64,000 bases of DNA from Levilactobacillus zymae. Its GTDB lineage: Bacteria; Bacillota; Bacilli; Lactobacillales; Lactobacillaceae. Positions 37,747-50,789 of the stretch are shown in pieces. Numbering within the stretch: the stretch's first letter is position 1; each line of letters begins with the position of its first letter. Position numbers and translations under genes: made by a program. A model generated the notes under the pieces. The model was not told the DNA's origin. It did no database searches and worked only from the letters and a program-made list of their open reading frames with translations. The stretch covers positions 1,922,001 to 1,986,000 of the forward strand of contig NZ_JAVLAS010000001.1 in the NCBI RefSeq assembly GCF_032190635.1, given 5' to 3'.

Positions 37747-37866
37747 AAAAAACGCCCACTTGGAACTTAATCCAAGAGGACGTTTGACCGCGGTGCCACC
37801 TCAATTTTCGACGGGCTCACACCACGCCGACTCAGGGAGTTGCTCGCACTGACGGACCCCCGAATT
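37747..37866 (-). promoter_or_regulatory. Second T-box module, lacking Stem I
   Basis: A second T-box core AGGTGGCACCGCG (37789-37801; variable base C) and its own terminator (37751-37764 with 37771-37784, then TTTTTT). Upstream are a partial Stem III and the conserved CTGAG segment, as in the other leaders. Only about 65 bases separate it from the first terminator, too little for a Stem I with a specifier. Confidence 0.8.
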
Positions 37867-38129
37867 AAAAAATCGCCCTCCTAGACCCGTAGGCCTAAGA
37901 GGACGATCACATCGTGGTTCCACCTCTGTTCGTTGATCTATCACTAAACCAACCTCAGTGAGTTGCAAGCAACTCCAGCGATAACGGGCTAACCCGAATC
38001 ATCCTACTCAATCTTCAGACGACCAACTCACAGATGTGTTTCACATCACCAGCGACACCCGCTTCCATCATCCGGGCTTTCTGTCGTCTAACTGGTCTGC
38101 TACTCTTCCGCTCAACGTTTTGTTTCATT
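37867..38129 (-). promoter_or_regulatory. T-box leader of the ABC transporter, His (CAC) specifier
   Basis: Complete T-box: distal Stem I (GACA...TGTC, GCCCG/CGGGT), duplex ACCAG/CTGGT, specifier loop strand GAAA-CAC-A, basal GCGGA/TCTGT, Stem III GAGTTGC/GCAACTC, T-box core AGGTGGAACCACG (37913-37925; variable base A), terminator 37867-37908. The CAC at 38036-38038 holds the position of GTA in the valS leader. Confidence 0.85.
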
Positions 38130-46655: not shown

Positions 46656-46895
46656 AAAAAAAGCTTCGTCCTAATCTTACATTAGGACGAAGCTGCCTTC
46701 GCGGTACCACCTAAATTGGGCGTTTAAGCCCCACTTATCTTCGTTGTTAACGGAGTGTGCTCCGGTACCGACCTACTTATTCGTTCAGTCGATCAGCTCA
46801 CAAGTTACTTTCCCGGTGACCGCTTCACCACGTCCCAGCACCCGTGGTTCTCTGTCTCAAGTCATCACCGTTACTCTCTTGCTCACAGCTAGTTA
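46656..46895 (-). promoter_or_regulatory. T-box leader of valS
   Basis: Minus-strand leader with core AGGTGGTACCGCG (46700-46712; variable base U, fitting A73 of tRNA-Val). The terminator has a perfect 14-bp stem (46662-46675 with 46681-46694) and a T run. In Stem I the duplex GGTGA/TCACC is followed by GGGAAA-GTA-A and the basal CTTGT. GTA (46806-46808) is a Val codon. This leader is a calibration point for the His leaders. Confidence 0.92.
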
Positions 46896-47540: not shown

Positions 47541-48659
47541 CTAATCTTGTCCGGTCAATCGAACCGCATTGATCAGGATTTGGGCGCCCGCCACCATGGC
47601 CGTGTGGTCAAACGTCATCCCCGGTATGTGGAGTCCGGGCGTCAAGCCACAGCCTAAGCCCAACATGGTGCTGCGCCGTGCTAACCCATCGTAGGCGTAA
47701 AAGTGAAAATCGTCGCCCCCCTGGGTCGGAACCGGGTCAACTAACCCGTCGGCCCCCAGGACCGCCGTGATGGCCTGACCCATGGTCGCAATGGCTTGGT
47801 CGTCGGGAATGGCCGCCGGTGACAAGTCGTTACCATCCAAGGTGATCTGAATGTCGCCGGTCGAGACCGCGCGCATCGCTCGAAAGGCCTGGTCTTGCAG
47901 TTGGTCCATCAGGTCGTTGGTTCGAGCTCGCAAATCCACGGCAAAGGTCCCCTTATCCGGCACGATGTTGGAGGACTCACCAGCCTGAAACATGGTGGCG
48001 GTCACCGAATACGGTGAGTCGGTCGCCAGTTTGATTTGTTTAAACCGTTCGTTGAGGGTGCTAAACGCGTCGATCACGTTGGCTCCCAGCCAGGGCCGCC
48101 CGGCGTGGGCCGTCTTACCGGTAATGGTCACCCAGTAGGTCCGCGTGGCGATGTCGGGTAACAGCGCCTCGGCCTGGTGGTCACCTACCTCACTATCCGG
48201 GCATACGTGCAGGCCGTATAAGACGTCGAGTGGGCCGAGTAACCCGCTTTGAATCACCTTTTCCGCCCCGGTCACAGTCTCCTCGGCGGGTTGAAAGATC
48301 ACCTTTAACGTCCCCGGCAAGTCGTCCGGGTGAGTCGCAAAGTACGTCACGACCGCCAGCACGATGGCCATGTGCGCGTTGTGCCCGCAGGAGTGGAGGA
48401 CCTGGGTCTTACCCTGATAGACCTGCTTAAGGGCGTCAATGTCCGTGCGTAACCCGATGGTCACCGGTTGGCCCGGATTAAGCGTCGCAATCAACCCTGT
48501 CATCTGGGGAAAGCGTTGATAGGAGACGCCTAGTTGGTCTAAGCGTTGGGCCAGGTAGGCCGTGGTGCGCACCTCCTGAAAGGCCACCTCCGCGCAGGCC
48601 CCTAATTGGTCAAAGTCGGTATAAATTTGTTGCGCGTTCACTGTAATTGGATTGAGCAT
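47541..48659 (-). CDS. M20-family amidohydrolase/peptidase
   Basis: Protein of 372 residues of the M20D amidohydrolase group: GLRTDIDALK near residue 72, the metal motif HSCGHNAHMA (about residue 90; most relatives have Asp after the His), FQPAEE (about residue 120), TGKTAHAGRPWLGANVIDA, and a late His region. Relatives remove acyl or aminoacyl groups from amino acids and N-acetyl-diaminopimelate. It starts 11 bases after the peptide-binding lipoprotein gene behind a His T-box, so a role in releasing histidine from imported compounds is inferred. AGGAGG precedes the ATG. Confidence 0.85.
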   Translation of the reverse strand: MLNPITVNAQQIYTDFDQLGACAEVAFQEVRTTAYLAQRLDQLGVSYQRFPQMTGLIATLNPGQPVTIGLRTDIDALKQVYQGKTQVLHSCGHNAHMAIVLAVVTYFATHPDDLPGTLKVIFQPAEETVTGAEKVIQSGLLGPLDVLYGLHVCPDSEVGDHQAEALLPDIATRTYWVTITGKTAHAGRPWLGANVIDAFSTLNERFKQIKLATDSPYSVTATMFQAGESSNIVPDKGTFAVDLRARTNDLMDQLQDQAFRAMRAVSTGDIQITLDGNDLSPAAIPDDQAIATMGQAITAVLGADGLVDPVPTQGGDDFHFYAYDGLARRSTMLGLGCGLTPGLHIPGMTFDHTAMVAGAQILINAVRLTGQD

Positions 48660-48670
48660 TTGGATTCCTC

Positions 48671-50311
48671 CTATTTCTGACTGGTCTTATAGGCCGTCTT
48701 CAACGAAATCCCTTGGGCGGCCGCATAGGTGACCCCCTTAAGTTGGGGATTATTGAGCCGGGCGATTTGTCCCTGGTTTAAGACCGCCACGGCCTGATCG
48801 GTCATCGCAATCTGATTAGCTTGTTTAAAATCAGCATAGCGTCGTGTCGCACTACCAGCGTCGACCCCATTAGCCCGGGTGTAGGCCCGGTCGAAGGCGG
48901 CGTTGGAATAGCTGCCGGCGTTGTTGTAATTGTTGGTATTCAGCAATTGGAAGAATTCGTTGAGTTCCGGATAGGATGCAATCCAGTTGGAAAACCCGAT
49001 GTCGTAGCCCTGCTTCTTCTGCATGGTGGTGATGGCTTGAACCTTGGGTTGCACGTTGACCTTTAAGCTGAGACCCTTCAGATATTTCTCCGTGTTAGCC
49101 TGCACGTATTCGGCGGCATTCTTAAAGGTGTCCACGTCGTAACAGACTAAGTTTAGCGTCAGGCGGTTTACCCCTAGCTGCCGTAAACCCTTGGCCCAGT
49201 AACGTTTAGCCAAATTTGGATTATACGCCACGGCACTGGCCACCTTGGCGTCTTGCGTAAAGTCGCGACCGGTCTTGGGGTTCTTGGCGATGTCGGCCGG
49301 GGCCATCCCCGTGGGAACCTTGGTGCCGTTCTTCAAGACGTCGTCCACCAGGCTTTGCCGGTCGATGGCTAACGAAAGGGCGCGCCGAATGTTCCGGTTT
49401 TGCATGGCCTTGTGGTTGAAGTTGTAGGCCAGGTAATCGGTCTCCCCACTGGGATAGGTCAAATAGCCGGGGTTGGTCTTTTCTTGTGCGGCTTGTTGGC
49501 CGGATAAGACGATGTTGTCGAGCTTCTTGGATTGGTATAACGACAAGGCCGTCTGTGGCGACTTAGCGACCTGAAACTTAACGGTAGCTAACTTTACGTG
49601 CCGCCGATCCCAATAATTCGGGTTCTTTTTCAGCGTCCAACTCGTCGACGAGGCCGTCCAGTTCTGAACGGTATACGGCCCATCGTAGACCGTTTTCTTA
49701 GCCGAGGTGCCATAACCCTGGCCGTACTTGGTCACAACTTTTTGATTTAACGGTAAAAATGGCACGGAGGCCACTAGATACTTAAAGTACGGCGTTGGTG
49801 CCGTCAGCGTGACCCGCAACGTCGTGGCATTAACGGCTTGAACACCTAATTTATCGGCGGATAGCTTACCTTTCTCAATGGCTTGGGCATTCTTAATCGG
49901 TAAGAACTGGTAGGCATCGGCTGCCTTGGTACTGGGCGTCACCGCCCGGCGCCAAGCATACACGAAGTCCTTGGCCGTCAGCGCGTCCCCGTTACTCCAC
50001 TTCAGGCCCTTGCGTAGGTGGAAGGTGTAAACGGTTTGGTTCGCCGTGGGACTCACGATGGCCGTAGCTAGGCCCGGTTCGACCGTGGTGCTGTTTTTCA
50101 TTCGATACAGGCCCTCTTCTGCATTGTTCACGGTCTCCAACGCGCCCACATCCGTGATCATGGTCGAATCTAACGATGAGATATCGGCCTGTTCCATGAT
50201 GGTCGCACTCTGCTGTGGGCTGGCGTCCGCCGTCCGCCCGCAGCCCGCTAGTGCGAGGCCACTGACTAAAACGACGCTGATTCCGACAAAACGTTTCAAT
50301 TGATTTGGCAT
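48671..50311 (-). CDS. Oligopeptide ABC transporter substrate-binding lipoprotein (OppA family)
   Basis: Protein of 546 residues with a lipoprotein signal (lipobox LAGC, Cys at about residue 24) and the SBP_bac_5 fold: GLYRMKNSTTVEPGLA, YTFHLRKGLKWSNGDALTAKDFVYAWRRAV, NIRRALSLAIDRQSLV. No transporter permease or ATPase genes lie next to it, so it presumably feeds a core Opp system encoded elsewhere. The start is ATG 50311 after AAGGAGG. It is the first full gene of the His T-box operon, 59 bases after a His-rich leader peptide. Confidence 0.93.
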   Translation of the reverse strand: MPNQLKRFVGISVVLVSGLALAGCGRTADASPQQSATIMEQADISSLDSTMITDVGALETVNNAEEGLYRMKNSTTVEPGLATAIVSPTANQTVYTFHLRKGLKWSNGDALTAKDFVYAWRRAVTPSTKAADAYQFLPIKNAQAIEKGKLSADKLGVQAVNATTLRVTLTAPTPYFKYLVASVPFLPLNQKVVTKYGQGYGTSAKKTVYDGPYTVQNWTASSTSWTLKKNPNYWDRRHVKLATVKFQVAKSPQTALSLYQSKKLDNIVLSGQQAAQEKTNPGYLTYPSGETDYLAYNFNHKAMQNRNIRRALSLAIDRQSLVDDVLKNGTKVPTGMAPADIAKNPKTGRDFTQDAKVASAVAYNPNLAKRYWAKGLRQLGVNRLTLNLVCYDVDTFKNAAEYVQANTEKYLKGLSLKVNVQPKVQAITTMQKKQGYDIGFSNWIASYPELNEFFQLLNTNNYNNAGSYSNAAFDRAYTRANGVDAGSATRRYADFKQANQIAMTDQAVAVLNQGQIARLNNPQLKGVTYAAAQGISLKTAYKTSQK

Positions 50312-50332
50312 AGGTTTTTCCTCCTTGGTGAC

Positions 50333-50370: not shown

Positions 50371-50460
50371 CTAATGGTGCAGACTATGGACCGTATGCCG
50401 ATGATGTCGCTTTTGCTCGGCAAGGGTCGCGATTAAGTTAACCATCATCAATTGAAACAT
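50371..50460 (-). CDS. His-rich leader peptide
   Basis: Reading frame of 29 codons, ATG 50460 to TAG 50371, located directly after the T-box terminator and before the lipoprotein gene. AAGGA lies ten bases upstream. The N-terminal half is ordinary (MFQLMMVNLIATLAEQK). The end reads RHHRHTVHSLHH, six His in the last eleven codons (five CAT, one CAC). This resembles attenuator leader peptides such as HisL. Together with a His T-box immediately upstream it suggests a ribosome-sensing element. Expression is unproven. Confidence 0.65.
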   Translation of the reverse strand: MFQLMMVNLIATLAEQKRHHRHTVHSLHH

Positions 50461-50483
50461 CTAGTCATCATCCTTTCTTTCAT

Positions 50484-50755
50484 AAAAAAAGTCCCCGCAA
50501 AGACGTTAATCTTTGCGAGGACGACTAATAGCGTGGTGCCACCTCTGACTTCGTAATGACCTCACAGCCATTACCTCAGTGAGTTTTTAAAAAACTCCCC
50601 CGGTTAACGGCGAGGTCCGTTCAATCCTACTAAGCGTGACCCGTTCAGACCGACTGCTGGTAGCTGTGTTTCAATTCTGGTTTCACCCTTTCAGCCGTAC
50701 GGATGATCTCTTAAGGTTAGAATTTACTTTGACTACTCGTTGCATTTCTAATTTA
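50484..50755 (-). promoter_or_regulatory. T-box leader of the peptide-uptake operon, His (CAC) specifier
   Basis: Minus-strand leader with core AGGTGGCACCACG (50532-50544; variable base C) and a terminator of 13 bp (50491-50503 with 50510-50522) plus a T7 run. In Stem I the distal TCATCC/GGGTGA and the duplex AATTCT/AGAATT are followed by GAAA-CAC-A, then basal GTAGT/GCTAC. CAC at 50666-50668 aligns with the specifier of the valS leader and matches the other His leader base for base over GAAACACA. Confidence 0.85.
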
Positions 50756-50761
50756 AAGCTC

Positions 50762-50789
50762 ATTTTAGGAGTTTCTAACGAATTGTCAA
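50762..50789 (-). promoter_or_regulatory. Promoter of the peptide-uptake operon
   Basis: Minus strand TTGACA (50784-50789), 16-base spacer, TAAAAT (50762-50767). Confidence 0.75.

Follow-up and report, generated by a model that had tools for sequence, protein, structure and literature searches.

The question raised by this locus is whether one gene is controlled twice by the same amino acid. In the window, a stretch of 64,000 nucleotides from Levilactobacillus zymae, a T-box precedes a short open reading frame crowded with His codons, and this frame in turn precedes a gene for a peptide-binding lipoprotein. The lipoprotein gene is likely to be under double control by histidine, by the T-box and then by a leader peptide that frees the start codon. 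The elements of the locus and the genes that follow are:

50762..50789, minus strand: promoter-like site 5′ of the T-box, TTGACA, 16 nt, TAAAAT (consensus scan, 11 of 12 positions)
50514..50749, minus strand: T-box leader (RF00230, 89.6 bits, E = 4e-20)
50666..50668, minus strand: specifier CAC (His), in the aligned frame of the Rfam model
50491..50522, minus strand: T-box terminator hairpin, then a T-run (14-bp stem, 7 G-C)
50471..50476, minus strand: AAAGGA, ribosome-binding site for the leader frame, spaced 10 nt from its ATG
50371..50460, minus strand: 29-codon His-rich leader peptide frame, MFQLMMVNLIATLAEQKRHHRHTVHSLHH and stop
50374..50406, minus strand: block of six His codons (codons 19, 20, 22, 25, 28 and 29)
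50320..50326, minus strand: AAGGAGG, ribosome-binding site of the lipoprotein gene
48671..50311, minus strand: peptide-binding lipoprotein, family 5 solute-binding protein (PF00496, E = 8.7e-73)
47541..48659, minus strand: M20 amidohydrolase/peptidase, 11 nt 3′ of the lipoprotein gene (PF01546, E = 2.7e-26; TIGR01891 over cut-off)

The RF00230 match covers model positions 1–219 of 219, and this full-length match together with the terminator places the element in the T-box family, at a score below the gathering score of 93; T-boxes of eight relatives score 85.5–103.6. The specifier aligns as GAA-A-CAC-A, and CAC is found by pattern at all 16 orthologous T-box loci checked. Promoter-like sites that match as well as the one 5′ of the T-box occur 0.8 times on average in shuffled sequence. 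The lipoprotein displays LALAGC close to its N-terminus, which we take to be a lipobox. The locus suggests a histidine role for the peptide-binding lipoprotein and the M20 hydrolase.

There are other T-boxes in the window. A Val (GTA) T-box is found 5′ of valS (46680–46895, minus strand, 114.1 bits) and served as the control for the specifier frame. A second CAC T-box (38124–37896, minus strand, 103.7 bits) lies within 37755–38124; an extra T-box antiterminator/terminator piece is present 3′ of it, followed by a three-gene amino-acid ABC transporter that by eye resembles hisXYZ. Long gaps between T-box and gene are seen before a similar permease in genomes G155, G270 and G303 (L136, L141 and L148).

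The sequence bears out the original prediction on the layout of the leader. A 29-codon frame with a ribosome site is present between the T-box terminator and the lipoprotein gene, six of its last eleven sense codons are His (five CAT, one CAC), and the T-box upstream reads CAC, as confirmed by the Rfam alignment and by the valS T-box, where the same frame gives GTA. The lipoprotein start, placed about 60 bases on, is 59 nt from the leader stop codon to the ATG. The predicted absence of a terminator after the peptide also holds, in that a consensus scan between the leader and the lipoprotein (50371 to 50311) gives none, and for this reason transcription attenuation of the his operon type was dropped.

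A comparison was made with the 394 open reading frames of 25–45 aa that begin with ATG, GTG or TTG in the six frames of the window. Only the leader frame contains a stretch of 11 residues with at least five His. The leader stretch also folds more stably than every one of 200 shuffles (z = −3.55). A Pfam search with the leader peptide gave no match, and identity with a known small protein was rejected on this basis. The evidence from relatives is stronger than this chance test on a single sequence, and a chance origin of the frame is rejected on the grounds of conservation.

Ten leader loci were read, four from Levilactobacillus and six from Secundilactobacillus. All ten carry a His-rich frame at the leader position, with 4–6 His each, and all ten have a CAC T-box. 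Nine of the frames align. That of S. folii is divergent, a frame of 40 codons ending HQVHSLHHRF. In the alignment the leader frame shows no stop codons in nine species, compared with 6–28 in the other five frames, and the relatives display a purine-rich ribosome site at a spacing similar to that of AAAGGA. The common pattern consists of MFQ(L/T)MM, drifting codons 7–17 and H(H/Q)(R/L)H, with HSLH in seven of nine. Codons 19 and 22 are CAT in all nine species; His is present at codon 20 in 7/9, at the codon 25 position in 8/9 and at the codon 28 position in 7/9. It had been proposed that the His codons would be kept in relatives while flanking codons drift, and the claim survives this comparison. 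A conserved frame of cognate codons with its own ribosome site, the mark of a leader peptide, is thus present at this locus.

The lipoprotein is patchy in its distribution. In the genus, 4 of 35 genomes have close orthologues (82% or more), and at E = 1e-180 the lipoprotein is found in 15 of 397 Lactobacillaceae genomes. A pattern search with ATGAAACGATGGCAR followed by TGA gave matches in 7 of the 397 genomes, G303 among them. At six orthologous loci in genus g14 the CAC T-box is present with no comparable His-rich frame, and one of these loci shows a 12-codon frame with a single His. The second layer is therefore dispensable, and the T-box is able to stand alone. These T-box-only orthologues allow a comparison of how a translational layer is gained atop a T-box.

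The leader RNA can form three helices that involve the start of the leader, the His codons and the start of the lipoprotein gene:

50391..50399, minus strand: anti-start segment GGCATACGG, codons 21–24, 5′ arm of helix H3
50307..50315, minus strand: lipoprotein start region ACCTATGCC, 3′ arm of H3
50443..50449, minus strand: GATGATG, Met-Met codons, 5′ arm of helix H2
50400..50406, minus strand: CATCATC, His-His codons, 3′ arm of H2
50447..50460, minus strand: leader start ATGTTTCAATTGAT, 5′ arm of helix H1
50291..50304, minus strand: early lipoprotein codons ATCAATTGAAACGT, 3′ arm of H1

H2 and H3 are found unaided by RNAalifold with nine sequences, with two pairs changed on both sides. H1 (14 bp, −15.9 kcal/mol) is absent from that consensus, and its register is shifted in four Secundilactobacillus species. 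Over H1–H3, 86.7% of cells pair, compared with 28.9–47.1% when slid. Five pair-count measures for the three helices are matched by 20, 449, 29, 495 and 29 of 500 shuffles, and a single pair is changed on both sides, because most of the paired columns never vary. A swap of anti-starts and starts gives a clearer result. Duplexes with the species' own start have a mean of −12.7 kcal/mol and swaps across genera −7.3 kcal/mol, and seven of nine anti-starts clearly prefer their own start over that of the other genus, e.g. −12.6 kcal/mol in the window compared with −5.6 to −6.0. Those of suantsaii and G303 show about equal fits to their own starts and to each other's; swaps inside a genus, too, are often equally good. 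The anti-start has thus changed together with the lipoprotein start between genera.

When the order of the leader codons is shuffled, the observed pairing of the AUG to the leader is reached in 0–7 of 60 shuffles in eight of nine species. The window is the exception, with 28 of 60. The start-hiding fold in the window is predicted to be 1.9 kcal/mol less stable than the minimum, in which a competing hairpin forms, and the AUG pairs with the anti-start at a probability of 0.03 in the bare RNA and 0.39 with a ribosome at the stop. By these predictions the window's own copy of the start-hiding device is the weakest.

These elements suggest the following sequence of events. By analogy with the T-box family, uncharged tRNA-His would keep the CAC T-box antiterminated so that polymerase passes the terminator, and in the read-through mRNA the His-rich frame would be translated as a leader peptide. 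With ample charged tRNA-His the ribosome would clear the His block, the anti-start would pair again with the lipoprotein AUG and translation would be low. With charged tRNA-His scarce, the ribosome would wait on the His codons, cover the anti-start and leave the AUG free. A shortage of histidine would then let through transcription first, by the T-box, and the start of translation second, by the leader.

The opening and closing of the AUG was modelled by folding. From the bare RNA to a ribosome stalled at the first His, the probability that the AUG is unpaired rises in eight of nine species, e.g. from 0.01 to 0.83 in zymae and from 0.00 to 0.68 in odoratitofui; the values move somewhat with the length folded. 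With the ribosome at the leader stop the AUG is predicted shut in seven of nine species; the two exceptions are the window (0.42) and S. yichangensis (0.69), where it is still open. A start that is hidden, opened by a stall and closed at the finish is the behaviour of a translational attenuator, predicted here and weak in the window.

A footprint of 30 unpaired nt was also moved along the leader frame. In zymae the AUG is at 0.00 with the A site of the ribosome on codons 13–17, at 0.65–0.88 on codons 19–28, the first to the last His, and at 0.06 on codon 29. G303 shows 0.00–0.01 through codon 17, 0.82–0.90 at 19–28 and then 0.19, and the scans of odoratitofui and acidifarinae resemble these two. 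In silagincola and angelensis the AUG is shut at codons 11–17, open between, and shut again from 31. Opening at early codons is predicted as well, 0.52–0.71 at codons 4–10 in silagincola, up to 0.59 in angelensis and 0.59 at codon 7 in zymae. suantsaii opens less, 0.26–0.47 at most codons of the His block, and yichangensis never closes in the scan, with 0.61–0.65 already at codons 4–10. The window gives 0.02–0.26 at codons 11–17 and 0.51–0.68 at 18–28, and its AUG is also open, 0.63–0.78, with the ribosome on codons 8–10. In S. folii the ribosome site is hidden by an unrelated helix; its predicted access is 0.21 bare, 0.54–0.78 stalled, depending on the length folded, and 0.21 at the stop. Any ribosome on codons about 18–30 covers the anti-start, so the switching model partly builds in its own result, and the model alone cannot prove that His causes the wait.

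The layered-control model is overall well supported in silico. The original prediction of layered control by histidine stands as to the frame, the His codons, the CAC T-box and the start helix, on comparison and modelling; all of the switching is predicted, and the fold of the window itself is weak. That stalling would alter access at the lipoprotein ribosome site is retained in part, in that the helix is predicted to open, but what it hides is chiefly the start codon and less the ribosome site.

A parallel is found for tryptophan. The nearest paralogues of the lipoprotein, about 41% identical, also lie behind a T-box, with UGG as the aligned specifier at the five loci shown, and a frame with a Trp codon follows the T-box. 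Among 397 Lactobacillaceae genomes the Trp-type lipoprotein is present in 46, of which 25 are Levilactobacillus. Trp loci were read without a frame filter, 69 in number with repeats included, and a T-box is found at 68 of the 69; the specifier is TGG in 67, and the remaining one is cut by a contig end. The leader frames contain RWQ (64) or RWP (4), with RWQ in all 21 loci of other genera. The sequence CATTGGC is seen in the terminator loop of the Trp T-box at most of the loci printed across genera, e.g. L006 and L113.

The gene start AUGAGCUU has a potential pairing partner in the leader, an anti-start (AAGCUCA or a variant of it) immediately 3′ of the Trp codon. For this anti-start and start, 77% of cells pair compared with 19–45% when slid, and when the starts are dealt again among the loci the observed count is reached in 70 of 2000, which is borderline. 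Position 8 of the leader and position +6 of the gene form G-C, G-U or A-U in 43 of 46, never A-C, and on the T-box tree two branches change both sides. The mean AUG pairing is 0.81, compared with 0.20 in codon shuffles. A ribosome with UGG in the A site raises the predicted opening of the AUG in 41 of 47 Trp leaders; in the scan the AUG stays open, 0.42–0.50, over ten codons past UGG, with no closing there.

Two features of sequence accompany these leaders. A CGA codon is present directly 5′ of the first His codon in six of nine aligned species (50404–50409 in the window). CGA also lies 5′ of the Trp codon in the Trp leaders collected, where it was imposed by the search pattern for 47 of them. 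The CGA before the first cognate codon is possibly a slow codon that aids pausing.

The helices raise the possibility that histidine is read by the T-box alone. The region 3′ of it would then be a structured RNA that damps translation of the lipoprotein, its CAU codons would exist as complements of AUG that pair with the leader and lipoprotein AUGs, and the frame would not sense histidine. H2 does pair AUGAUG with CAUCAU, the lipoprotein AUG has a CAU as its partner in H3, and the third positions of the conserved His codons are nearly invariant, as in the CAT at codons 19 and 22, which points to a constraint at the level of RNA. However, H2 and H3 do not include the His at the codon 25 and 28 positions, and S. 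folii, without H2 and H3 as such, keeps HQVHSLHH and a ribosome-site helix that is predicted to be opened by a ribosome on His. The Trp leaders, moreover, retain UGG outside the core of their start-hiding helix, and the amino acid of the T-box and that of the leader match repeatedly, His with His and Trp with Trp. Regulation by the T-box as sole regulator is thus an unlikely account of the locus. It is far less credible still that the frame encodes a small functional protein controlled by the T-box together with the transporter. His-rich peptides can bind metals, and a metal-binding product would agree with the conserved MFQ(L/T)MM start and the H(H/Q)xH...HSLH pattern, but the middle of the peptide is unconserved, the length of the C-terminus varies (frames of 29 or 34 codons, and of 40 in S. 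folii), HSLH is missing in L. suantsaii, no Pfam match is found and much of the nucleotide conservation falls within the RNA helices.

A further mechanism is known from B. subtilis, where the leader peptide of rtpA, named rtpLP, contains three Trp codons and the ribosome finishing it covers the rtpA ribosome site. A ribosome terminating at the leader stop might similarly sit on the lipoprotein ribosome site. A distance that fits such occlusion, 14–15 nt from the end of the stop to GGAGG, is seen in three Secundilactobacillus species, but the window, zymae and acidifarinae have 46 nt, suantsaii 60, G303 56, odoratitofui 24 and S. folii 25. These distances are mostly past the reach of the ribosome and occlusion is rejected as a general mechanism; it has very little probability as the explanation of the locus and could at most add to the control in some members of the clade. 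The reading preferred here remains a T-box followed by a leader peptide that uncovers the lipoprotein start.

This reading combines features of several known systems. In translational attenuators of the ermC type, a ribosome stalled on the leader peptide releases the start region from pairing within the mRNA. The likeness to the His locus is in the freeing of a paired start by a stalled ribosome; the cue there is an antibiotic, whereas here it would be the shortage of one charged tRNA, behind a T-box. The His locus differs from rtpA in its amino acid, in its target, a peptide-binding lipoprotein, in its host, a lactobacillus, and in its start-hiding helix, where rtpLP acts by occlusion.

The original prediction took a T-box and leader peptide in tandem for one amino acid to be without precedent, and this is wrong. 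In the B. subtilis at operon, rtpA already has a Trp T-box and a Trp leader peptide, and elevated uncharged tRNA-Trp induces the transcription and the translation of anti-TRAP alike (PMC4027176). The His locus resembles rtpA in that a T-box and a leader peptide follow one another and are cognate to a single amino acid. Leader peptides of his operons, which act by transcription attenuation, are reported in enterobacteria and some Firmicutes in the available portions of PMC9413887 and PMC2965389. They share with this locus the His codons within a short leader frame and differ in that no terminator was found after the frame here. In the same portions, His leader peptides sit in Firmicutes groups without His T-boxes (PMC9413887) and leader peptides replace T-boxes (PMC2965389). 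His T-boxes of Lactobacillales are placed on his and hisYZX operons and yuiF, among them histidine uptake genes, in the accessible part of PMC9413887, which mentions neither a peptide-binding lipoprotein as target nor a leader frame behind the T-box.

A T-box and leader peptide together for His are not described in the available portions of PMC4027176, PMC9413887 or PMC2965389. A full-text search of the open-access literature, from which subscription papers are largely absent, gave no recognised report of a T-box with a leader peptide in lactobacilli, and no experiment on the His tandem was found in that literature. What is new is the His tandem built on hiding of the start codon, together with a recurrent Trp version. 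There is a fair chance that the His tandem belongs to a wider class in Lactobacillaceae of which no description was found.

On balance the loci favour double sensors that recur in Lactobacillaceae, with a T-box for transcription and a leader peptide of the same amino acid that uncovers the start codon. Such sensors would have at least two origins, one for His and one for Trp, whose leaders are unrelated though the logic is the same; they may extend to Trp at trpE and trpD and to Ile, and rtpA would be one example of a general design. In the literature searched, the sensing in series of one uncharged tRNA has one described case, rtpA, and the start-hiding versions for His and Trp would make it a repeated solution. 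If true, double sensing would steepen the response to one uncharged tRNA and keep leaked transcripts silent.

Other T-boxes were surveyed for ATG frames at least 8 codons long that have a ribosome site and lie before the gene; seven other loci show GTG or TTG frames, which are left out of the count. In the genome of the window, 30 of 31 T-boxes were obtained with their locus, and qualifying frames are present only at the His and Trp lipoproteins, apart from one spurious frame. The latter lies behind the T-box of a gene that presumably resembles pheS, and it was rejected as a leader peptide. Of the 183 T-boxes in five other genomes the survey covered 86, with no gene found in the stretch at 5 of the 86. 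Twelve have a frame; by eye, three of these are cognate His or Trp frames, two are Ile leads, four are like a second T-box piece and three are unexplained. The survey of these six genomes refutes the tandem as a general feature of all T-boxes.

In G303 the Trp T-boxes of trpD (L175) and trpE (L182) precede RWQ frames, MMTNNTRWQ... and MKRWQC respectively. The MKRWQC frame before trpE was missed in the survey because of the 8-codon filter.

Ile-like T-boxes (L131, T-box 1501–1737; L204; L215–L243) have the specifier ATC or ATT, by eye or by rough pattern, in most cases. Their frames display M(K/E)S.I..., and NPGQI(Q/S) is often present as well; the gene that follows shows a weak resemblance, below cut-off, to 2-oxopentenoate hydratase. 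An Ile-containing frame, mostly Ile-rich, is found at 21 of 30 loci, and no shared start-hiding partner was found for the Ile frames in the 13 scored of 14 tried.

Four loci (L132, L144, L157 and L210) are T-box leaders with long gaps, and their GG(L/I)(Y/I/A)R frames resemble second, degenerate T-box sequences and not leader peptides; three of the four genes there are, as we take them, BrnQ-like. In the genome of the window, L041 (G000:C1:2478616-2478856) is a T-box before a gene that by eye is transposase-like, with the T-box L057 1.1 kb on in the same strand. L034 of the same genome shows a SAM-III riboswitch (11–133) 5′ of a T-box with an AUC specifier, followed by another lipoprotein-like gene.
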